The notes beneath the pieces are model-generated. The model was not told where the DNA came from, did no database searches, and saw only the letters and a program-made list of their open reading frames with translations. Shown here piece after piece: positions 1 through 10,645 of a stretch of DNA of 10,662 nucleotides. The stretch spans positions 1-10,662 of the forward strand of contig WJIN01000348.1 of the NCBI GenBank assembly GCA_014730295.1, in the 5' to 3' direction. A program made the position numbers and the translations under genes. The stretch comes from Promethearchaeota archaeon. GTDB lineage: Archaea > Asgardarchaeota > Lokiarchaeia > Sigynarchaeales > SOKP01. The stretch's first letter is position 1. The number at the start of each line of letters is the position of its first letter.

Positions 1-1046
1 ATACCTTGGAATTCCAAAGCTTCAATCATTTTTTTCTTAATAAATTCTAATAAATTAGTATCATCTTCTACTAATTTTGAACTATTTTCGATCGAATATT
101 CTATATCTTGTTTTTTAATACCAATAAAAAAATTAAATTCAATATCTTTCGCTACACTCAAAAAAGGAATTATAGTTGGAGAATAGTAATCAGCTGGAGG
201 TTCTTTACCTTGACTATTATAATACTCTCCAAAATGCGGTGTCATAATATCTTCTTCTATTTTTGGATACTCTTTCGGAATCGAATCCATAAAAAATATT
301 TTTCCTTGACGCTCTTTTTCATAATAACTTTTTTTTTTTGGACAACCAAAAATGTCACAAAATCCTTTATCTTTCAAAGCAATTTCTTCATCCGCATTTC
401 CGTCAGAATTTTTAAAATATTTATTGATTAGATAATTTCGTAGAACTCCTTTTATTGCAGAACCAGGTATATAGGGAAAACCATATATATGATCTAGTTT
501 TAAACTTGTTTCGAAAACAGAAGGGTTCCCGAATCCCACTAATAATCTACTAGCTGTTTTTGCTTTAAATCCAATAAAATTAATATTCTTTCTTGTTTGT
601 CGTAAATTATGGCTAAATTTTTCGTTATAATTTTTTAGATATTTAAACCTAAAATCTTTTTTGATATCTGGTAAATCAAATTTATTTTTAGGTCCGATTT
701 TTATATATTTTTGATACATTAAATTATAGTTATCAAAATCGGTAAAGTTTTTATTCAATATTTCTCGGGTATCTTTGGGTAATTGATAATCCTTTATCTG
801 CTTTTGAGATCTTTTTTTTGGTTTTAATTTTTTGGATTTAGTCTTATCCCCTTTCTTAATTAATTGCATATCCTTAGCATGAAGTCCTTTAGGTTCCTTT
901 ATCAACTTAAATTTAACAATATCTCCTTCTTTGGGGATAAATCCTTTAAAGCTGTCAAACCCAATATGAACATCTTTCCTCTTTTTTCTTTCTATAAATC
1001 CAAACCCTTTTTCATTATCAAAAAATTTAACTTTACCCTTCTCCAT
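1..1046 (-). CDS. cmr6: Cmr6 RAMP protein with an N-terminal cold-shock domain (3' end outside window)
   Basis: Cmr6 caps the crRNA 3' end of the type III-B complex beside Cmr1. The frame is open from ATG 1046-1044 to base 1, giving 348 residues; the C-terminus lies off the left edge. Residues 150-206 show the Cmr6 signature: ASRLLVGFGNPSVFE (165-179), then YGFPYIPGSAIKGVLRNYL (188-206). Residues 1-66 are unexpected. They match a cold-shock domain (OB fold, single-strand RNA/DNA binding): GKVKFFDNEKGFGFI at 4-18 with the RNP1 motif KGFGFI, a degenerate RNP2 (DVHIGF, 25-30, where DVFVHF is usual), and a closing EGDIVKF strand near 40-46. F15, F17 and F30 are kept; canonical W8, F27 and H29 are F, H and G. 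A Lys-rich linker (12 basic residues in 64-85) joins the domains. There is no stop or internal frameshift between them, so this is a true fusion. The gap to cmr5 is 28 nt. Confidence 0.93.
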   Translation of the reverse strand, partial: MEKGKVKFFDNEKGFGFIERKKRKDVHIGFDSFKGFIPKEGDIVKFKLIKEPKGLHAKDMQLIKKGDKTKSKKLKPKKRSQKQIKDYQLPKDTREILNKNFTDFDNYNLMYQKYIKIGPKNKFDLPDIKKDFRFKYLKNYNEKFSHNLRQTRKNINFIGFKAKTASRLLVGFGNPSVFETSLKLDHIYGFPYIPGSAIKGVLRNYLINKYFKNSDGNADEEIALKDKGFCDIFGCPKKKSYYEKERQGKIFFMDSIPKEYPKIEEDIMTPHFGEYYNSQGKEPPADYYSPTIIPFLSVAKDIEFNFFIGIKKQDIEYSIENSSKLVEDDTNLLEFIKKKMIEALEFQG

Positions 1047-1055
1047 ATTTTTTTC

Positions 1056-1061
1056 CACCTC
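1056..1061 (-). promoter_or_regulatory. Shine-Dalgarno site of the CSD-cmr6 gene
   Basis: GAGGTG lies on the minus strand with a 9-nt spacer (GAAAAAAAT) before ATG 1046-1044. This strong site supports translation starting at the cold-shock domain, not at a downstream Cmr6-only start. It also serves as the comparison for the unusual csx1 start, which has the same GAGGTG core at almost the same spacing. Confidence 0.8.
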
Positions 1062-1074
1062 TTAATCAATAGGA

Positions 1075-1482
1075 TTAGTTAATCATACCGTTTGCAAACC
1101 GACTCATCCATTTTATAAATGAAAGGATTTCAGAAGTGAAAGCTCTATATTCAGAACTATCTAAATCTAAAATATACTTAATTAATTCTCTATCATCTAA
1201 GTTAAATACTCTCTTTGGATCTTTTTTAATCCATTCGGTACAATCTTCATAAATCCGTTTATATGCTGCTGAATCCTTTTTTAAGATGAATGCGATTGTG
1301 GCTGCTAATCCATTAGTTTTTATTAACATAGGAATTCGTTTCAGATATGACTTATAATCAGAACTCCAACTCTCTTCAGCATTTACTATTTTTTGGACTC
1401 TTTCGTAGGCAAATTTAGCCCTTCCTTGTTCTACTGTCTTTATAAGATTTTGAGATGTTTCTTTACTCTTTTTTGTACTCAT
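1075..1482 (-). CDS. cmr5: Cmr5, small alpha-helical subunit of the type III-B complex
   Basis: Cmr5 is the small subunit; copies line the target-RNA face of the Cmr filament beside the Cmr4 backbone and help bind RNA. The 135-residue length and all-helical, polar composition are typical. Family features seen are EQGRAKFAYERV near residues 18-29, the central block KRIPMLIKTNGLAATIAFIL (about 48-67), and a C-terminal segment YRAFTSEILSFIKWMSRFA (about 112-130). The ATG overlaps the cmr4 stop as ATGA (1479-1482), the usual sign of translational coupling; a GAGG site for it lies inside the cmr4 3' end. No odd features. Confidence 0.95.
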   Translation of the reverse strand: MSTKKSKETSQNLIKTVEQGRAKFAYERVQKIVNAEESWSSDYKSYLKRIPMLIKTNGLAATIAFILKKDSAAYKRIYEDCTEWIKKDPKRVFNLDDRELIKYILDLDSSEYRAFTSEILSFIKWMSRFANGMIN

Positions 1483-2462
1483 TGTTTATCATCCTCTTCA
1501 TTTTCAGTTAAAAGATGAATGTTTATTAATCCCTTTCCTGTTGTAGCATTTCCTCCCATTTGTAATATTTTTGGACAATTTACATTAAAATGGGATATAA
1601 TTTTTTGAGCTTGGATATCTCCATTCTCATTTTTCACCTCTTCAAAGGAATCATAATTTATATTTTGTTCATTAGTTCCAAATAGTGGACTTGCCATTAC
1701 CAAACTATACATAATTGTTTCCACGGGAAGATATTCTTCAGTAAATAATGCTCCAGATTTTACTGTGCCCGTTTCAGGATCAATATTAGTCCTTGTTATT
1801 ACTTCAGTACTTAAATTAACAAAATCATGGAAATCATCATCACTGAGAAGAATAATATCTCTCGTTATTTTTTCTTTAATATAGTCATATTCTAGACCAT
1901 TTGGAATTAGATTTCTCGATATCCACGATGTCAATTCCCCGAGATTAGAGTCCTCTGCTACATTTTTAAAAGCATACTCTTCCAATAAAATTATTCCATC
2001 CTTGACAAATAGGTTGGTATTTTGTGGTACTTTATTATGTTTTAAGAGCAGAGATTTAAGTGATTCTTCAGGGAGATTAATATCCGGTATGCATAATTTT
2101 AGATCACTATAAAATTGCGATAATACTTTAGGACTTGTAATCCATGCAAAAACACCTTTTGCCGATTTCACTGGAAAGAGCAATAATCTTCCATCTGAAA
2201 TACTTAGAGATGATGCTCGATCAGAAGCCTCATCAGATTTTTCGGGTCCAAAAAGAACTTCTAAATCATATTTACTTATTATTCCTCTGAATTCATGTCG
2301 TAATGTTCCTTTTATGCTCGAGGCCTCGATCTTTGGAAAAGATGTATGCTTTTCTCTCTGAATTGGTTGATCTACTAATCCTAATTCAGAACCACATCCC
2401 ATATGGAGGGGCGTCTTTACTATAAAAAAAATGGGCTCAACTCTTTTGTAAATTTTTCTCAC
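1479..2462 (-). CDS. cmr4: Cmr4, backbone RAMP subunit and target-RNA endonuclease
   Basis: Cmr4 polymerises along the crRNA and cuts the bound target RNA at about 6-nt intervals. The N-terminal RAMP block is clear: KTPLHMGCGSELGLVDQPIQ (16-35), then SFPKIEASSIKGTLR (41-55). D31 in the GLVDQPIQ motif is the position of the conserved catalytic aspartate of characterised Cmr4 (D26 in the Pyrococcus protein, from memory), so cleavage is expected to be intact. The C-terminal glycine-rich loop GGNATTGKG (303-311) is also typical. The annotated start is GTG 2462-2460, but this GTG lies within a Shine-Dalgarno-like AGGTGAG. An ATT three codons downstream (2453-2451) would give an N-terminus, (M)YKRVEPIFF, closer to the usual family start; the choice is unresolved. 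It overlaps cmr5 by 4 nt and lies 30 nt from cmr3. Confidence 0.96.
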   Translation of the reverse strand: MRKIYKRVEPIFFIVKTPLHMGCGSELGLVDQPIQREKHTSFPKIEASSIKGTLRHEFRGIISKYDLEVLFGPEKSDEASDRASSLSISDGRLLLFPVKSAKGVFAWITSPKVLSQFYSDLKLCIPDINLPEESLKSLLLKHNKVPQNTNLFVKDGIILLEEYAFKNVAEDSNLGELTSWISRNLIPNGLEYDYIKEKITRDIILLSDDDFHDFVNLSTEVITRTNIDPETGTVKSGALFTEEYLPVETIMYSLVMASPLFGTNEQNINYDSFEEVKNENGDIQAQKIISHFNVNCPKILQMGGNATTGKGLINIHLLTENEEDDKQ

Positions 2463-2492: not shown

Positions 2493-3635
2493 TTAAATTT
2501 TTTTTATTTGACCAATAGAAAAGATTCCGAAACCTCTTTCTTTCCATTGGTCTGATAAATTTGTATTCATATCAATTTTGCCAATAAATTTTTTATTAGA
2601 CTTTAGATAATAAATTGATCCTGAATTTAAAGCTTTAAACATTGGTCTTGGATGTCCTTCTTTCATATTGAAACCTCCGACATAGATAGGTTTATCTAAT
2701 ACACATCCAATAACTTCTAATTTCGTTTGAAGGAATTGTTGAAAATTGGGATGATAAATCTCATGAAATATAGTTGGGGTTGCGAAATATATTTTAATAA
2801 AAAAATCTTCATTATTTTCCAAATTATTTTTTAAATCATCCAAATTTTGACTTTTAAAACCTAAAAAGTCTATTATTTGATTTGATTTTAATTCATTTTC
2901 TTCTAATTTTCTAAATTGGACCTTTCCATTTCTACCTCCAAGTCTTACAATTCCATCATCAGATATATCAATACCTTCAAAATTGATGATTAAATCAATA
3001 TCTTTAAGTCGTTTTCTTATTAAAGAATATAGGTATTGTTCTTCGGCTGTACCTGTTTCTTTTGATATTTTAATCCCTATTTTAGGTTCATTTATTAAAT
3101 GATTTGAAAGCCTAATAATCGAATAATTGCTTGAGCTATCAATTTCATTTGGATCTTGAGGTTCTATATTTAATTTATCCGCTATAGTATCATTTTTTAA
3201 ATAATAAAGTAGATCTCTTATTTTAATCCATCCATCTTGAATATTTTCGACATTATTATCCGTTTTTAAAATGTAAGGGTAATCATAAGAAGAGAGTACA
3301 CCAGGTTGATCCGAAAGGGCAATTAATTTTAATTTCTGAACAACGGGTTCTTCCGAATCTTTAGAAATTACAATATCATTAGGTAATGGAACAAAAACTT
3401 CATCATCTTTAGAGATAAAAATTCCTTTTATCCTTAAATTTAATGAAGGATCTTCGTTGGTTTCTCTCTTAGAAAAATCACCAAGATGATTCGAAAAATA
3501 TTCTGCCCTTAGGGCTCCATATATAGTTAGAGGGTTAGGGGGAAAGATACCTTCAGCCCAATTGTCTTCTATCATCCTAAAAGATTTAGCATCTCGGAAG
3601 AATAATGTATCAATAGAAGACATTTCTATAATCAT
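2493..3635 (-). CDS. cmr3: Cmr3, Cas5-like RAMP subunit holding the crRNA 5' tag
   Basis: Cmr3 pairs with Cas10/Cmr2 and grips the 5' handle of the crRNA at the foot of the complex. The 380-residue protein carries the family landmarks: the opening motif IDTLFFRDAKSF (8-19), FPPNPLTIYGALRAEY (31-46), an internal LGGRNGKVQFRKLE stretch (232-245), and the C-terminal glycine motif YVGGFNMKEGHPRPMFKAL (318-336), equivalent to the GG...GxPxPM motif of other Cmr3 proteins. The ATG at 3635-3633 follows an excellent AGGAGG site; the next Met is only four codons in, so the start is not in serious doubt. Only 5 nt separate it from the cas10 stop. Nothing looks broken. Confidence 0.95.
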   Translation of the reverse strand: MIIEMSSIDTLFFRDAKSFRMIEDNWAEGIFPPNPLTIYGALRAEYFSNHLGDFSKRETNEDPSLNLRIKGIFISKDDEVFVPLPNDIVISKDSEEPVVQKLKLIALSDQPGVLSSYDYPYILKTDNNVENIQDGWIKIRDLLYYLKNDTIADKLNIEPQDPNEIDSSSNYSIIRLSNHLINEPKIGIKISKETGTAEEQYLYSLIRKRLKDIDLIINFEGIDISDDGIVRLGGRNGKVQFRKLEENELKSNQIIDFLGFKSQNLDDLKNNLENNEDFFIKIYFATPTIFHEIYHPNFQQFLQTKLEVIGCVLDKPIYVGGFNMKEGHPRPMFKALNSGSIYYLKSNKKFIGKIDMNTNLSDQWKERGFGIFSIGQIKKI

Positions 3636-3640
3636 ATTTA

Positions 3641-5518
3641 TTATCCTCCTCTCATAATTTGTTGATAGGTTAAATATTTTGATTTGATAAAGTCACATAT
3701 ATTAAGGAATGAGCAAAGATTGGAAAAATTTCTATTATTTATGATCTCTCCTAGAGAAGCTAATATTTTATTATTAATTCTGTGATTATTATCTCTTAAT
3801 TCTTCTTCTTTGATTTTATTTATTTTTTTATTCATAAGAACAGAGCGATATAAGAGCCTTTTTAATTCTGTCATTATTAAATTTTGAATTTGCATTTCAT
3901 TTTCGTTAAAAATTTTATTATTCCTTTCATTCCACCAAAATTCACTTTTAAGACTCTTTATAAAAGTACTTGAATAAATCTTATTTTTCAGATCATTAAT
4001 TATACATTTTGCTAAATCAGTTATCAGATATTTATTTTTAGAAAGAGTTAGATACCACTTATTAGTAGATTGTATAAAACTCCCTGATGGTTTTAAAATT
4101 CCAATAGACAGCGCATTTTTATTATCAATTTCCTTCGCCTTATGCTCTAGAGTTCGAGTAATTTCAATTACCCTTTTTAAAGGTTCTTTATAATGTGCAA
4201 TACATACTCCGCATGATGCGGTAGAGATATATTTAATTTCACTGGAATCAGATAATAATTCTCTAAAATCAGGAAAATTTTGTCTTATTTCTTTTAGCAA
4301 ATCCCACAAGTTAGAAAGATTAATAAATCCGCAAATATCATCTCCTCCAGCATACACTAAGAGACCATTATGTTTTTCGAAAGTCTTTTCCACTTCATTA
4401 GCATAACTTCCAAGTCTTTGACTCATTTTTGAATGAAATTCTTCTAATTTTAACTTATCTTGCATAAAAGTCCCACTAATCCATTTTCCTATATCATCTC
4501 CATCGAATAGAAGAAATGCATAATATTTTGACCATATGGAATCTTCAAACATTTTACTATTTGTTTTAAACCAATTCTCTGCCTTTTCTTTTATCTTTTG
4601 CATTTCCTCATCCGTTTTATCGATATTTTCTAATTCACTCTTAAAGTAATAGTCTTCATCAAAACTATTCCCAAAAATCTGAATATAATCCTTAAATTTT
4701 TGCTCGAATCGGTTATCTTTTAGTAAATGACCTATTGATATTCCCGCTGTTGAATTCATAGGAGGATATGGATCTTTCAAATTATTTTCAAATGTACTAA
4801 ACCTTTTAACCATACACACTCCACACAAACCCTCTTTTTCACTCATAAACTGTTTTCTAAACATATTAATGAGTATCGCATGATTGCTAGCAAAAACTTT
4901 CTTATTTTTATAGAATATTAAAGCATTTCTTTCACCACATAAATCACATTTTACTCCGCTTTCTCCCCCTCTTCGAAATTGCTTGATGATTCTTTTATTC
5001 TTTATTGCCCCTATCCAATTTTCTAAATCACTATATTGTTTAGTATATTTTTTTTCACTTGTTATTGGTAAACTAACCCAATAATATTCTAAGAATTTAT
5101 TAATTTGCTCTTTAAATTGTTCTTGAGTCTTAGAATCAATTTCGCCTCTATTACTAATGTCTATTATCTCCCTTAAAACATCTTTAAAAGATTCTTGCAT
5201 TAATTCTATTACATATTTAATCAAATGGGTTCCTAAAGCATTTATATTTTCATTGATTTCTGTTTCATTCTCTCCTTTAAATCTAATTTTAGCGACAAAT
5301 CGATTTGGTTTTGATTTAATTTCCTCAGAAGGATAAATAACATTAAAACTCGTATAAAACTGATTATCGTTTCCGATAGATCGTTCAAATTCTTCGATTA
5401 ATTTGTCAATTAGGTGAGATAATAATTTACTTCCATTTTTGAAGTCAATTACTCTTCTTGCTTGGGCTATAAAATTTTGTACGGGACCTATAGTAAATAA
5501 AAATAATCTCTCATTCAT
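3641..5518 (-). CDS. cas10: Cas10 (Cmr2), HD-less with intact GGDD cyclic-oligoadenylate synthase motif
   Basis: This is the large signature subunit. When target RNA binds, the Palm domains of Cas10 polymerise ATP into cyclic oligoadenylate. The 625-residue protein begins directly at the first Palm region (LFLFTIGPVQNFIAQARR, 5-22), followed by SKLLSHLIDKL. A four-Cys zinc site comprises C191/C194 (CDLC) and C232/C235 (CGVC). Palm landmarks are FDGDD (338-342) and the catalytic GGDD (391-394) in LLVYAGGDDICGF. The C-terminal ~130 residues are helical. The HD nuclease domain usual at the Cmr2 N-terminus is absent (HD-bearing Cmr2 proteins run to roughly 850-900 residues), and the 24 nt to cmr1 leave no room for it. 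Interference must then depend on Cmr4 cleavage and on cOA signalling. ATG 5518 follows an AGAGGA site. Confidence 0.96.
   Translation of the reverse strand: MNERLFLFTIGPVQNFIAQARRVIDFKNGSKLLSHLIDKLIEEFERSIGNDNQFYTSFNVIYPSEEIKSKPNRFVAKIRFKGENETEINENINALGTHLIKYVIELMQESFKDVLREIIDISNRGEIDSKTQEQFKEQINKFLEYYWVSLPITSEKKYTKQYSDLENWIGAIKNKRIIKQFRRGGESGVKCDLCGERNALIFYKNKKVFASNHAILINMFRKQFMSEKEGLCGVCMVKRFSTFENNLKDPYPPMNSTAGISIGHLLKDNRFEQKFKDYIQIFGNSFDEDYYFKSELENIDKTDEEMQKIKEKAENWFKTNSKMFEDSIWSKYYAFLLFDGDDIGKWISGTFMQDKLKLEEFHSKMSQRLGSYANEVEKTFEKHNGLLVYAGGDDICGFINLSNLWDLLKEIRQNFPDFRELLSDSSEIKYISTASCGVCIAHYKEPLKRVIEITRTLEHKAKEIDNKNALSIGILKPSGSFIQSTNKWYLTLSKNKYLITDLAKCIINDLKNKIYSSTFIKSLKSEFWWNERNNKIFNENEMQIQNLIMTELKRLLYRSVLMNKKINKIKEEELRDNNHRINNKILASLGEIINNRNFSNLCSFLNICDFIKSKYLTYQQIMRGG
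3645..3650 (-). promoter_or_regulatory. Shine-Dalgarno site of cmr3 encoded by the last cas10 codons
   Basis: AGGAGG on the minus strand is formed by the final Arg-Gly-Gly codons of cas10 (AGA GGA GGA TAA), 9 nt before the cmr3 ATG. The terminal RGG of Cas10 may therefore reflect the need for a ribosome-binding site more than protein function. It predicts coupled translation of the two partner subunits. Confidence 0.7.
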
Positions 5519-5542: not shown

Positions 5543-6439
5543 CTACCTTAATGAATTAATGAATTTATTAGGGACTTTATCACTATCGTTAGGAGGGCTA
5601 GTATGTCTTGGAGGAACGTAATTTAATCTTGACATAATAGGAAAATATTTATCATTTTCTTTAATTATAGAAATATATAGAGGAGATGCTAATTTCTCAT
5701 CTGAATTTGCAAAACCCATTGAATTATAGTCCTGTCTATATCTTTTCTTAAGTAAATGACACTGTTCGTCTATTTTCTTTCTTATAGCCATCCAGCTACT
5801 AAATTCTCTGCCGATTGTAATTGATTTTAAATACGGAAAATTTGAAAAAGAAAGATTCTCACTAAAAATAATTTTCCTATTTTGATTATCTAATTCATAA
5901 TTCAAATTCGTCAATTCCGTTATAATTTCGCTTAAAATTATAATTCTCTCTCTACTTAAATTATATTCAATATCAATATTAGCGTTAGTGATCTTGATAA
6001 GTCTTAATGCACCCGCACCCCTCCTAACTCTCTGACCAAGTCCACCTAAGATTAAACTGAAATATTGTAAAAGAAAGAATTTTCTTAAAAAAGCATCATC
6101 CTCGTATGATTGAATTCTTATTATAAATTTAAATCCATCTTGAATTGCTTTCCTTGTAAAATTTTTTGTAGTAAGTAATTTATATTTTTTTTGAAGAAGT
6201 TGTTTGTCGGATAAAAGTCTCAATTGAAACTTAGATTTTTTCCCGCCCTTGTCTGCAGAACCAAAATAGTCCGCCTCCCTACGATACAACTCCTCCATTG
6301 AAAGTTCTCCATGCAATGCTCTCCACCAATATCTCATTAGACCTTTAATAGGGGGTGCTCTTAATTCCACCCTATAAGGATCATATCCATGCAAGAACAT
6401 TGGAGTGATAACTTCCCACTCTGAATCTATCCAATTCAT
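5543..6439 (-). CDS. cmr1: Cmr1, RAMP subunit at the crRNA 3' end; first gene of the operon
   Basis: Cmr1 caps the head of the Cmr complex near the crRNA 3' end, where type III-B target pairing is thought to begin. Family motifs are ITPMFLHGYDPYRVELRAPP (11-30), the block IKGLMRYWWRALHG (31-44), an LYRREADYFGS segment (51-61), and the glycine/arginine loop GGLGQRVRRGAGAL (132-145). A later ASPLYISI strand (251-258) also fits. At 298 residues it is somewhat shorter than Pyrococcus-type Cmr1 (over 330), mostly in the C-terminal half; the reading frame is clean. The ATG at 6439 is preceded by AGGGA with a 5-6-nt spacer. It is the promoter-proximal gene of the minus-strand operon and diverges from the CARF-RelE gene across a 294-nt gap. 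Confidence 0.94.
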   Translation of the reverse strand: MNWIDSEWEVITPMFLHGYDPYRVELRAPPIKGLMRYWWRALHGELSMEELYRREADYFGSADKGGKKSKFQLRLLSDKQLLQKKYKLLTTKNFTRKAIQDGFKFIIRIQSYEDDAFLRKFFLLQYFSLILGGLGQRVRRGAGALRLIKITNANIDIEYNLSRERIIILSEIITELTNLNYELDNQNRKIIFSENLSFSNFPYLKSITIGREFSSWMAIRKKIDEQCHLLKKRYRQDYNSMGFANSDEKLASPLYISIIKENDKYFPIMSRLNYVPPRHTSPPNDSDKVPNKFINSLR

Positions 6440-6733: not shown

Positions 6734-7738
6734 ATGACCAGAAAAGATAATATTTTGTTTATATCCTTAGGAAGATCTCCCGCAGTTGTTCCAGAAACGC
6801 TCGACGCATTGATGGATAAAGGTATCTATATCAAACGGACCTATCTTATTACGACTTCAGATGAAATTATCGTTAATAAATGCATTCCGCTAATTCAAGA
6901 AGATTTTAAGGCTCATTACCAATCAAAAAGTATGGAACTCTCTCCGTGGCAAGCTTGCCTTTCCAATGATGATATTTATACTGAGGGCGATAATCTCGAA
7001 TTAATGATAAAAGTTTCAGGTATTTTTAAGAAAGAAAGCGGAAATAATATCTATATTAGTATGGCGGGAGGGAGAAAAACGATGTCTGCAGCAATGGCGT
7101 TATTGGCGCAGATATATGGGGCTCGGGCCATCACTCATGTATTAGTTCCGTCTGAAGTTGAGAAAAAAGGAAACATCTTTCAATTGGAAAAATTAATCAA
7201 TAAGGAACGAGAACGAATACTTCATCCAAAAGAAAAGCGTTTGATCTTTTTTCCCGTTATTGGAATATCATGGATGTTGAATGATATGATAAAAGCGCTT
7301 CAAGGAATTGAGATCGCATCAATCAGAAAGGAAGTGCGTGAAATATTAATTGAAAATGGTCTTTTAGATAATAAATATAAACCAACTCCATTAGGCGAGC
7401 AATTATTCAAGTTATTAAATGATATTGAAAAATATCCAATTCCATCATCTAAATTACCAGATTTAAAGTTCAAACATGACGAATTTCCTCATGCTCCAAA
7501 AGGTTTTCAAAAATTCATAATGAAGTTATCAAATGTACCTTATATTGAAGAAATTAGAGGATTAGAATATAGAAATTCTTCGGAAACACGTATTAATGAA
7601 ATTTATTCCGATGGAAGCTTCAAATGTCAATATAGTGATGGGGATAAAGCATATGCGTTAAAAGTGATAACTACAGCTAAAAGTCGTGGAGAAGTTCAAT
7701 TCATCAAGGAAAATCTTCAGTCTTATTTTCAAAATTAA
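6734..7738 (+). CDS. cami1: CARF-wHTH-RelE protein, Cami1-like cOA-activated mRNA interferase
   Basis: The 334-residue protein has three parts. Residues 1-165 are a CARF domain of the NE0113 type, with LISLGRSP-like loop GRSPAVVPETL (13-23) and the ligand motif AGGRKTMS (111-118). Residues about 195-230 form a winged helix (IRKEVREILIENGLL, then a PTPLGEQLFKLL wing). Residues about 247-334 resemble RelE: two helices, then strands RINEIYSDGSFKCQY (286-300) and AYALKVITTAKSRGE (306-320), and a last helix. Known family knowledge: CARF-wHTH-RelE proteins (Cami1) are activated by cyclic tetra-adenylate, dock on the ribosomal stalk and cut mRNA at the ribosome. I cannot assign catalytic residues by eye. 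The ATG at 6734 has a GGGAAAGAG site; the gene is first of the plus-strand group and divergent from cmr1. A plain ring nuclease is less likely because of the C-terminal domain. Confidence 0.82.
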   Translation: MTRKDNILFISLGRSPAVVPETLDALMDKGIYIKRTYLITTSDEIIVNKCIPLIQEDFKAHYQSKSMELSPWQACLSNDDIYTEGDNLELMIKVSGIFKKESGNNIYISMAGGRKTMSAAMALLAQIYGARAITHVLVPSEVEKKGNIFQLEKLINKERERILHPKEKRLIFFPVIGISWMLNDMIKALQGIEIASIRKEVREILIENGLLDNKYKPTPLGEQLFKLLNDIEKYPIPSSKLPDLKFKHDEFPHAPKGFQKFIMKLSNVPYIEEIRGLEYRNSSETRINEIYSDGSFKCQYSDGDKAYALKVITTAKSRGEVQFIKENLQSYFQN

Positions 7739-7774
7739 ATTATTAAAGTAATTTAAATTTATAATGAAAATCTA

Positions 7775-7791
7775 GAGGTGTAGAAAAAATA
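7775..7791 (+). promoter_or_regulatory. Shine-Dalgarno site and probable ATA initiation codon of csx1
   Basis: GAGGTG (7775-7780) is followed by an 8-nt spacer (TAGAAAAA) and ATA at 7789-7791. The arrangement is nearly the same as at cmr6, where GAGGTG is followed by 9 nt and ATG. The frame is closed by stops at 7762-7767, and no ATG, GTG or TTG occurs in it before 7924, yet the intervening codons encode a conserved CARF N-terminus. Either ATA is used as a weak start or an ATG was lost by mutation or sequencing error. Confidence 0.6.
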
Positions 7792-9144
7792 GATTCTAAA
7801 ATATTTATTACAATTTTAGGAGATTCAAGGTTTTATAAATATACAAACTATACTTTTGACATTAAATCTTCGAAGAAATTTACTGTAAATCATTGGTATG
7901 CAAGTTTTGCTTTATTAAAGTATTTGAACGAAAGATCAAAAGCATCAATTAGAAAGATTTTCGTATTATACCCTGCCACAGAGGTTGGAATGCGAAGTTT
8001 TGAGAAAGGATGGAAAAAGGATGAAAACAAAAATTACAATGAGAATAAAGCGCCTGTGAAAGAAATTATCTCAAATGTTGCACCTAAAAGTTCTGATGTA
8101 ATTGGAATTTCTTTTCCCAATGTTAATTCAACAGAGGAGATCTGGGATTTTCTTACATCTTGTCTTAAATTTCTTAATAAAGTTAAAGATTCAAATATTT
8201 TCGTGGATATAACACATGGATTTCGTATTTATCAAAATCTCTTATTTTCTTTCCTCTATTATTTTGAAAATATTTCTACAAACAAATTAGAGAAAGTTTA
8301 TTATGCATTATTTCAAGGTGAAGGAGAAGAGACACCATTTATAGAGTTAGATCAGCTGATAATGCTTCAACAAGAGATTTCTCAAATAAAACTCTTAATC
8401 CAAAATTTAGATGTAGGAGCATTTGAAGCATTAAAATCTAGAGTTCGTGCGTTAAAGTCGTATATTTTGACACTTCAGAAAGTATTGTTATTAATAAACA
8501 ATGGAATTGTCAGCGATAAATTATTACCCAAACTCGATTATTTAATGGACACAGATAAGTTTGATTTCATCCCGAATAATGTTTTTTCAAATTATGATCT
8601 ATTTTTAAAAAAATCCTTTGTTAAAGGCATCCGTCCAGAAATTCTAGCCATTAAAGACGCAATATTCGGTAATGTTAAAAATGAATCTAAAATTTGGCAA
8701 CGACAACTTAATCTTGCACATTTATTGCTTTCAAGGAAAAAAGAAATTTCTACATCTTTACAATTAATCCGGGAATCTTTTATATCTTGGATATGTGAAG
8801 ATGTCTATGATTATGACTCTCTTGATACGACTAAGAGAGCAGAGGCATCGATGATTTTCAAAAAATTAAGGATCATACAAAAAGAAAATAAATTTGGAAT
8901 AAATAAAAGTTTGATATTCCAAATAATCGATAGATTAGCTCAAGTTAGGAATAGCTTTGCTCATGTTTTTTCGACCAGCGATCAAATTCTATTAATTGAA
9001 AAGAAATCACAAAACATAGTAAATTATATCGAAGAAATACTGAAAGATATTATAAGGTTGAAGAAATTGATCAATTCTAAAGATGAAAAAGAATATCTTA
9101 TAAATATTATTAATGAAATGGAAGCTAATGAATATAAGACATAA
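7789..9144 (+). CDS. csx1: CARF-HEPN ribonuclease, TM1812-type Csx1/Csx2 family
   Basis: Proteins of this family bind cyclic oligoadenylate through CARF and degrade RNA through a HEPN dimer. Counting from ATA 7789, there are 451 residues. The first strand and loop, IFITILGDSRFYKYTNYTF (5-23), match the ILxSFLGT...YxxTxYxF opening of TM1812-type CARF proteins. The second hallmark, DITHGFR, is at 140-146. After a long helical linker, the C-terminal HEPN domain shows the active-site motif RNSFAH (R387, H392, Rx4H). A start at the first conventional codon (TTG 7924) would delete 45 residues including the conserved first strand, so it is unlikely to be the native start. The gene follows cami1 by 50 nt on the same strand. 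All visible motifs are intact, so the gene is probably functional unless the start codon is truly lost, in which case it is a recent null. Confidence 0.85.
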   Translation: MDSKIFITILGDSRFYKYTNYTFDIKSSKKFTVNHWYASFALLKYLNERSKASIRKIFVLYPATEVGMRSFEKGWKKDENKNYNENKAPVKEIISNVAPKSSDVIGISFPNVNSTEEIWDFLTSCLKFLNKVKDSNIFVDITHGFRIYQNLLFSFLYYFENISTNKLEKVYYALFQGEGEETPFIELDQLIMLQQEISQIKLLIQNLDVGAFEALKSRVRALKSYILTLQKVLLLINNGIVSDKLLPKLDYLMDTDKFDFIPNNVFSNYDLFLKKSFVKGIRPEILAIKDAIFGNVKNESKIWQRQLNLAHLLLSRKKEISTSLQLIRESFISWICEDVYDYDSLDTTKRAEASMIFKKLRIIQKENKFGINKSLIFQIIDRLAQVRNSFAHVFSTSDQILLIEKKSQNIVNYIEEILKDIIRLKKLINSKDEKEYLINIINEMEANEYKT

Positions 9145-9245: not shown

Positions 9246-10019
9246 ATGAAAAATATATATTTAATTTCCTCATTAGGAATGTCTCCAGGAGTAATTACCG
9301 GAGTAATTGATGCATTACAATACTCAAATTTAGAAGAAACCTACGATCCCAAATACATTGCAATTATAACCACTGATCACGATTTAACTCGACGAGCGGT
9401 TGAGCTAATTGAAAGGGATATCTCTCAATTTAATCCTCATATTAAAATCCTCCCTTATATTATAAATGGTCTATCCGATATTCATACGAGTAAAGACAAT
9501 TTCCAAGTTATGAAAACATTCCTCCAAGCTTTTAAACAAGGAGAGCTCTATAAGAAAAGAGCTGAGGTTGAACAAATCCATACAAATATCGCAGGTGGAA
9601 GGAAAACGATGTCGGGTGTTTTTACCGCACTTTCAAATATTTTTCCGGTAGATAGAATTTATCATCTCTTAACTTCTCCAGATATAGAACGAAATGGGCA
9701 TATAAAAAACTTTTTAGACGAGAATAACCGACTAAAAGATAATTTACTTAATGATGTGAGACTTCAGAGATACTTACATCCAAAAGCAGCGAGAGAAAAA
9801 TCAACCTTAGTAGAGATTCCCCTATTAAAAACCTTCAATTTTGATAATCTTCTATATACAGTAGAATCAATACTCAATAAAGAAAGAATTTTAAATAAAA
9901 GGATAGTGAATATGCTGATTAGGAATAGAATAATAGAACCAATTAGTAAGGAAAAATATTCTCCAACTAAAGAAGGAAAAACGTTATTTGAACTATTAAA
10001 ATATTATTTGTCATTGTAA
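9246..10019 (+). CDS. CARF-wHTH protein without effector domain, candidate ring nuclease or regulator
   Basis: The 257-residue protein has an NE0113-type CARF domain (about 1-190): YLISSLGMSPGVITGVIDAL (5-24) carries the first strand and binding loop, and AGGRKTMSG (116-124) the second ligand motif. A winged helix follows (about 205-252; LNKRIVNMLIRNRIIEP, then SPTKEGKTLFELL). The layout parallels residues 1-230 of the CARF-RelE protein two genes upstream, including LHPK before the linker (178-180 region), but stops where RelE would begin. CARF proteins with only a wHTH include cOA-degrading ring nucleases and transcription factors; sequence alone does not say which this is. ATG 9246 is the only possible start, because a stop lies two codons upstream; AGGAT abuts it too closely to be a good ribosome-binding site, and an AAAATATTT about 20-27 nt upstream would suit leaderless transcription if the host is archaeal. 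Confidence 0.85.
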   Translation: MKNIYLISSLGMSPGVITGVIDALQYSNLEETYDPKYIAIITTDHDLTRRAVELIERDISQFNPHIKILPYIINGLSDIHTSKDNFQVMKTFLQAFKQGELYKKRAEVEQIHTNIAGGRKTMSGVFTALSNIFPVDRIYHLLTSPDIERNGHIKNFLDENNRLKDNLLNDVRLQRYLHPKAAREKSTLVEIPLLKTFNFDNLLYTVESILNKERILNKRIVNMLIRNRIIEPISKEKYSPTKEGKTLFELLKYYLSL

Positions 10020-10220: not shown

Positions 10221-10645
10221 ATGTCAATAGATACTACATATCTTTATGAACGAGATAGGAAGATCTTAAATAAGATTATTGAGGCAATAAAGCAAGTTAA
10301 AGGCAATCTCGGGGCTATCTTATTTGGAAGTGTTCTTAAATCAAATGTTTATAATGATATTGATCTTGCAATCGTGAGAACACCTAATTCAGCTTCTAAA
10401 TCGTTAATGTATCTTTTATAATTTCCGCAAAATTCGATACCCGTTTTTTAACAGAGATGCACACAATTATCGTTAAAGAAGCGATCAAGGAAGAACTTCT
10501 TTTTAAAAAAGATTATTTTTAATTATTTGATATTGATATTAGGATTATTAAGGAATGGGAATCATTTCGACCCTATTATGATTTATATTTGGAGACGGTC
10601 AAAAATGACGTCCGAAAGGATTCTTCAGAGAATAGGTTTTATTGA
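10221..10645 (+). pseudogene. Broken MNT-type nucleotidyltransferase (MntA-like antitoxin)
   Basis: The first frame (66 codons, stop at 10419-10421) encodes a minimal nucleotidyltransferase core: GAILFGSVLKSNVYNDIDLA (31-50) with the GS...DxD motif (G36, S37, D46, D48). In MntA-HepT systems this fold AMPylates and neutralises a HEPN toxin. The rest of the protein continues in the -1 frame: from about 10400, ISAKFDTRFLTEMHTIIVKE and LLFKKDYF to a TAA at 10520-10522, then in that same frame FDIDIRIIKEWESFRPYYDL and LETVKNDVRKDSS to TGA 10643-10645. That tail resembles the usual MNT C-terminus (charged segment, then a WxxFxPYY-like motif). One frameshift, somewhere in 10400-10418, and one nonsense codon therefore separate it from a complete ~141-residue protein. 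No slippery heptamer is evident, so decay or sequencing error fits better than programmed shifting. There is no clear ribosome-binding site. Confidence 0.65.

Follow-up and report, generated by a model that had tools for sequence, protein, structure and literature searches.

A cold-shock domain fused to Cmr6 in a type III-B CRISPR locus of a Promethearchaeota archaeon, and exchange of N-terminal modules among its relatives

What is a cold-shock domain (CSD) doing at the head of Cmr6, a subunit of a type III-B CRISPR complex? The question is raised by a 10,662-nucleotide stretch of DNA from a Promethearchaeota archaeon (contig WJIN01000348.1), hereafter the window, in which the cmr6 frame opens with such a domain. 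It bears on how structured phage RNA is captured and unfolded at the place where type III-B complexes such as TtCmr begin to pair with their targets, the 3' end of the guide. The cmr1 to cmr6 genes of the window, Cas10 included, lie within one operon, which makes the system type III-B. Its features are the following:

855..1046, minus strand: cold-shock domain, Cmr6 residues 1-64 (PF00313, AlphaFold2 barrel, superposition on CspB)
783..854, minus strand: Lys-rich linker, Cmr6 residues 65-88, of differing length among relatives, with low pLDDT from residue 69
3..782, minus strand: Cmr6 RAMP core, from the LPKDT motif onward, ended by the window edge (TIGR01898, 127.6 bits; PF03787; alignment)
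1055..1063, minus strand: probable cmr6 ribosome-binding site, AAGAGGTGG, read from the sequence
1075..1482, minus strand: cmr5, small subunit, with no added domain here (PF09701, 114.4 bits)
1479..2462, minus strand: cmr4, backbone subunit (TIGR02580, 215.4 bits)
2493..3635, minus strand: cmr3 (PF09700, 127.1 bits)
3641..5518, minus strand: cmr2/Cas10, with GGDD and without an HD domain (TIGR02577, 159.8 bits; Cmr2_N from residue 6)
5543..6439, minus strand: cmr1 (TIGR01894, 50.7 bits, cut-off 28.65)

Read from the ATG at 1046, Cmr6 extends over 348 residues up to the window edge that cuts it; the protein is at least that long, and its C-terminal glycine-rich GAKTAVGYG motif would fall beyond the edge. 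Its match to TIGR01898 passes the curated cut-off of 51.1 bits. The cmr3 product passes the Pfam cut-off of 21 and stays below that of NCBIfam (92.5 versus 100.4), and the GPVQ motif of Cmr2 lies 17 residues into the stop-to-stop frame. As Cas10 lacks the HD domain and keeps GGDD, the complex should act through cyclic oligoadenylate. No CRISPR array is present in the window, whose contig may simply end before one.

Three plus-strand genes stand beside the operon, at 6734-7738, 7924-9144 and 9246-10019. Two of them are NE0113/Csx14-like (PF09623, 93.9 and 72.3 bits) and one matches TIGR02221 weakly (44.8 bits, below the cut-off of 76.25); together, they are likely a cyclic-oligoadenylate effector set. 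The first of the three has a relative (57.9% identity) that likewise adjoins cmr in a Lokiarchaeota locus, L001. Also on the plus strand, 10221-10421 holds a short frame with a GSVLKSNVYNDIDLAI stretch and an early stop; the stretch presumably resembles a minimal nucleotidyltransferase.

Residues 1-64 of Cmr6 are a true cold-shock domain, as the preliminary description of this DNA had proposed. PF00313 recognizes the N-terminus with 35.3 bits, above its gathering cut-off of 27. The structure prediction suggested there as a check returned an OB fold with pLDDT of about 95: a five-stranded barrel over residues 1-64 (pLDDT 94-96 through residue 60) that superposes on CspB-type structures at 1.0-1.4 Å. 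The domain is in frame with Cmr6 and shared with its four nearest relatives. The uninterrupted passage from the CSD via the Lys-rich linker into Cmr6, described earlier, holds in the open frame of the window, and the four relatives share the CSD on Cmr6. Since these relatives lie on other contigs, a frameshift or a mis-joined reading frame is excluded as the source of the fusion. The low pLDDT from residue 69 onward suggests that the linker is flexible.

The classical cold-shock protein is free-standing and about 70 residues long, whereas the CSD of the window is the N-terminal part of a protein several times that size. With Bacillus CspB (1CSP, 1C9O, 5JX4) it shares the fold, an RNP1 motif with GFI, K7, F15 or Y15, and F17. 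Its RNP1, KGFGFI at residues 13-18, fits the classical K-G-[FY]-G-F-I; its RNP2, VHIGF, departs from the classical V-F-V-H-F by F27 to H and H29 to G. It differs from CspB in being a domain of a CRISPR subunit, in these two changes together with W8 to F, and in a shorter loop, like that of 5JX4, a mutant from which E36-G37 are deleted.

The preliminary description knew of no system with such a fusion. This did not hold: both Pfam domains are annotated in many relatives, and the PDB names a 'CSD domain-containing protein Cmr6'. That protein (376 aa) belongs to DtCmr, deposited as 9ARW, 'Structure of the guideless DtCmr Type III CRISPR complex' (released 2025-08-27); the Cmr6, Cmr2 and Cmr4 sequences of 9Z7Q, 9Z7V and 9Z7X are the same. 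Its N-terminal CSD and core match those of the window over residues 6-332 with an E-value of 8.2e-49, and for the window's Cmr2 and Cmr4, too, the PDB offers no better match than the DtCmr subunits (Cmr2 of 612 aa). The start of the window's Cmr2 is matched by residue 19 of DtCmr Cmr2, which suggests that the latter, too, has no HD domain. The DtCmr CSD, however, is of the canonical FFH kind, and that of the window of the VHxG kind. The Cmr6 chain in 9ARW is 161 residues long; since 157 of these fall on the core, between positions 82 and 359, at most four could belong to the CSD, which was apparently not modelled. In the open-licence PMC literature we found no paper joining the cold shock domain with Cmr6 and no recognizable paper on the deposited DtCmr/9ARW complex; two papers there mention 'cold shock' as well as Cmr4 or Cmr6 (PMC5438186, PMC6337395). 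The fusion is already known to databases and represented by a deposited structure; an account of its role did not turn up in that literature.

The profile search across Cmr6 relatives that had been recommended was carried out in two ways. In the first, we pooled the best 120 of 178 relatives found with the window's Cmr6, the best 120 of 1390 found with that of 9ARW (94 of these new) and 80 of 444 from a scan of genome contigs. Removal of five sequences under 250 residues from the resulting 294 left 289, near-duplicates included. Profiles for two kinds of N-terminal domain, rebuilt over two rounds, assigned a CSD to 127 of them, an alternative domain to 56 and neither to 106, in a sample biased towards CSD-Cmr6. 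On reversed or shuffled sequences, both profiles matched 0/289.

In the second, whole genomes were drawn from four phyla with the Cmr6 family model, a few of the classified frames ending at contig ends. A CSD is present in 9 of the 128 Cmr6 frames, two of the nine being from seed genomes. The phylum of Desulfoscipio gives 8/55 (alternative domain in three) and that of Bacteroidetes 1/25 (alternative domain in five; one over-cut-off frame outside the count). No CSD was detected among the 30 frames from the phylum of Methanophagales, where one carries the alternative domain, one lies under the family cut-off and three score like distant RAMPs, nor among the 18 of the Lokiarchaeota phylum, with no alternative domain either and five over-cut-off frames outside the count. 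As 119 of the 128 frames show no CSD by profile, the Cmr complex can do without it. One illustration is L001, which has cmr1 to cmr6 in the gene order of the window, with Cmr5 60.6%, Cmr4 52.0% and the Cmr6 core 45% identical, yet its cmr6 begins 22 bases after cmr5 and encodes no CSD.

The fusion is therefore a minority architecture, yet a widely spread one. According to their records, CSD-Cmr6 loci occur in Planctomycetes (Brocadia, Loosdrechtia), Thermotogae, Bacteroidetes, Clostridia and a Treponema, and the CSD-bearing relative P0008 comes from a Heimdallarchaeota MAG. Two apparent losses were set aside: P0059 is a gene-call artefact, since L003, with an identical core, reads the CSD in frame, and in L047 a shortened cmr6 stands directly behind an unrelated gene. 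Viral contigs were scanned for phage-borne copies; of the two stretches matched, neither is a relative of Cmr6. The CSD profile (E up to 0.01), run on 8467 frames no shorter than 45 residues from 80 loci and the window, found no standalone cold-shock gene; outside frames with Cmr6 motifs, it matched only the Cmr5 fusions of two loci, L005 and L022. We also considered whether the CSD is tied to loss of the HD domain. The association is not specific: among loci with a recognized Cmr2, the window counted with the CSD loci and 44 further loci not countable, HD is absent in 9/9 CSD, 8/8 alternative and 17/20 other loci.

Two kinds of CSD emerge from an alignment of 107 sequences, the long matches among the 109 CSDs from the protein searches. 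Thirty-three are canonical, with an FH or VH pair in RNP2; 62, like the window's, are of a V-H-[FI]-G type, and 12 are neither. Within the 62, H27 occurs in 52, G29 in 39, D31 in 49, S32 in 56 and F8 in 46. The exchanges at positions 8, 27 and 29 singled out in the preliminary description are thus present, but they are not peculiar to this protein: their recurrence makes F8/H27/G29 a conserved signature of the subfamily. Of the 62, 50 keep K7, 54 have K or R13, 55 F or Y15 and 57 F17, and these positions are mostly retained across both subfamilies. In the variant one H29 is gone and F30 and F38 mostly so; canonical CSDs have K or R at position 8 in 21/33.

We compared variability at nine positions, known from CspB studies to contact nucleic acid, with that of the other surface. 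The nine are less variable, with permutation p-values over 20 letters of 0.0018 for the canonical kind and 0.046 for the variant (0.0010 and 0.028 with a reduced alphabet). Conservation of the binding face is clear in the canonical kind and weak in the subfamily to which the window belongs. Across pairs, CSD identity tracks core identity and is lower in every bin: 73.7 versus 86.9% in the top bin, 64.0 versus 68.7% at 65-75% and 32.9 versus 48.4% at 45-55%. For the pair P0001/P0002 the values are 68.6 and 75.8%.

The N-terminal slot of Cmr6 is modular: close relatives carry a CSD, the alternative domain or neither. At least 16 non-overlapping pairs, with cores 60.8-80.9% identical, combine a CSD in one member with the alternative domain in its partner (in one of the pairs, the alternative domain of L023 is split over two frames). 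At a core identity of 65-75%, the N-terminal state (CSD, alternative or other) is the same in 252 of 543 pairs; above 85%, in 68 of 69. An IQ-TREE phylogeny of 92 cores (67 CSD, 25 alternative), run in quick mode with no mixture model and with long-branch warnings for P0064 and P0005, has 14 state changes, where shuffling gives 22 on average, and its starred branches force at least seven. The state is thus clustered on the tree, and exchange is not free. This tree supersedes an earlier FastTree of 273 rows, 16 of them without the trimming motif, with 77 changes, or 52 when CSD is scored against the rest. In the window's own group of five, all members have the CSD.

The replacement is seen most directly in L005 and L006. 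Their DNA is 92-93% identical over cmr2 to cmr4 and 88% over the remaining cmr6 core; in between, blastn finds no similarity for L005 6871-8393, about 1.5 kb that hold two cmr5 genes and cmr6 to about codon 144. The encoded proteins still resemble each other, with 44% identity for the first Cmr5 and 77% for the Cmr6 core beyond residue 90, which indicates that the stretch was replaced by a distant homologue and not by unrelated genes; the added domains differ. Four further pairs (L003/L004, L003/L011, L008/L056 and L007/L011) are similar in DNA across cmr5 as far as the beginning of cmr6, where the similarity breaks off, to return within the core. The N-terminus can thus also change alone, although at 64-70% identity this is weaker evidence than that from L005/L006.

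The alternative domain is of the type MSEKGKIIIxKSKKG...DDSLNGKECEVEREKGQIxKIxVDGKELP, as in residues 1-69 of P0051. In the Cmr6 proteins scanned for it, no Pfam family covers this N-terminal stretch. Its alignment to the CSD by hhalign reaches a local probability of 54% over 38 columns or 63% over 25, and 9% globally. The structure model shows four strands of at least six residues; a search of the PDB gave no relative (best E 0.12), and when the model was compared as a whole with known structures, every matching row started at residue 99 or later, outside the domain. It also heads frames of 795-822 residues in three genomes of Loosdrechtia's family, with a Pfam RAMP match in L152, the one tested.

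Both kinds of module occur on Cmr5 as well. In L005 and L022 a CSD-like N-terminus precedes PF09701: the CSD profile gives 9.2e-7 for L022 (Pfam CSD 18.2 bits, below cut-off) and 0.00043 for L005, which has no Pfam CSD match. The alternative domain stands on Cmr5 in L006 (6498-7172) and L013 (6495-7175), and weakly in L052 (6900-7616). L005 has two adjoining cmr5-like genes, at 6895-7299 and 7277-7951, the second with the CSD-like N-terminus.

Further N-terminal types were noted. The Cmr6 proteins of P0171, P0174, P0190, L005 and L022 begin with a SIQDQLIALGCATQEQA-like motif that matches neither the CSD nor the alternative profile. In L240, L241, L243 and L244 of the Bacteroidetes-phylum draw, the Cmr6 matches lie within frames of 746-827 residues, and other large Cmr6 fusions may therefore exist.

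The variation of the slot between close relatives and the domains on Cmr5 were not visible to the preliminary description, whose interpretation is partly supported overall. Module exchange on Cmr6 and Cmr5 is new as far as these searches reach; the open-licence PMC literature yielded nothing on point for Cas11/Cmr5 recombination and modularity.

What the domain does can be approached through TtCmr of Thermus thermophilus, like the window's system a type III-B complex whose Cas10 has no HD domain. According to its description, Cmr1 and Cmr6 sit at the crRNA 3' end, where target binding starts; the seed lies at this exposed end, proposed to be positioned by Cmr1/Cmr6, and passes between Cmr4 and Cmr5 (PMC8376896). 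The placement of Cmr6 at the end where pairing begins, assumed in the preliminary description, is borne out for TtCmr in that account. HD-less Cas10 of type III-B is described elsewhere too, and the passages concerned mention no cold-shock domain (PMC8682760, PMC10600005).

We favour, at not quite an even chance, a CSD that serves as a tethered, low-specificity arm for single-stranded RNA at the Cmr1/Cmr6 seed end and aids target capture. On its flexible linker, the domain would reach the end where the crRNA is exposed and pairing with the target starts; there it may concentrate target RNA locally and keep the seed-complementary stretch open. Captured targets could then trigger the HD-less Cas10 complex more readily, which would strengthen signalling. 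We infer RNA binding, the position of the arm and its help in capture from a nucleic-acid-binding fold, a binding face that is partly kept, placement on Cmr6 or Cmr5 and a mobile linker. The recurrence of the fusion (127/289 in the biased sample), the way CSD identity tracks that of the core, and the seed of TtCmr at the crRNA 3' end support this reading. So do the CSD-like folds of CoCoNuTs, a defence system predicted to target RNA (PMC11090510). CoCoNuT CnuB and the effector of retron Se72 are defence proteins with such folds; unlike the window's Cmr6, they belong to no crRNA-guided complex, and the Se72 model NF038236 gives 43.9 bits with Cmr6, below its cut-off of 82. The unmodelled CSD of guideless DtCmr fits a mobile arm and equally an idle one. 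Against the arm count the lower conservation of the CSD relative to the core, the loss of some contact positions, the weak conservation of the binding face in the variant subfamily, and L001 and most of the drawn Cmr6 proteins, which lack the domain. Nor need the alternative domain in the same slot bind RNA.

The module exchange is the more surprising part of these results: the modules may be several solutions to one task, or a surface driven by conflict. In the latter case what matters would be exchangeability more than identity, with CSD, alternative domain, short N-termini or nothing swapped by recombination in a contest with, for example, anti-CRISPR proteins. The CSD/alternative pairs with similar cores, the 14 changes of which at least seven are forced, and the near-identical DNA of L005 and L006 around a replaced stretch at cmr5 and the Cmr6 N-terminus all speak for it. 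Still, we consider it unlikely, because a mere decoy would not need the degree of conservation found on the nucleic-acid face, the N-terminal state is clustered on the tree, and we know of no anti-CRISPR that binds this part of the complex.

Alternatively, the CSD could handle the crRNA and not the target, binding its 3' end or the pre-crRNA during assembly or trimming and so setting the length of the complex. Besides the position of Cmr6, this explanation can draw on the 3' ends of TtCmr crRNAs, which differ according to how many Cmr4/Cmr5 segments there are (PMC8376896), and on the solved CSD-Cmr6 complex being 'guideless' with the CSD apparently unmodelled. A CSD-like module on Cmr5, however, would lie along the backbone and not at the 3' end only, and we regard a crRNA-directed role as rather improbable. 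That the domain is a passenger of gene fusion with no task in the complex is very doubtful: many Cmr6 proteins lack it, including that of L001 with the same operon order, and it diverges faster than the core, but its identity still tracks that of the core, a coherent signature is kept in 62/107 sequences, and other domains fill the slot in relatives.

Under the favoured reading of an RNA-binding arm, the CSD would be one of several small modules for the Cmr6 slot and sometimes for the N-terminus of Cmr5. More broadly, we tentatively propose, as something short of an even bet, that type III-B loci have a recombination-prone variable cassette where cmr6 begins, which at times takes in cmr5 as well and whose seed-end domains (a CSD, one without a Pfam name, or none) would vary RNA catching or anti-CRISPR display between close relatives. 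A domain with an RNA-binding fold that is present, replaced or absent among close relatives provides natural sets of complexes in which RNA capture can be tested, and the Cmr6 module suggests a handle for tuning Cmr-based RNA-detection tools.
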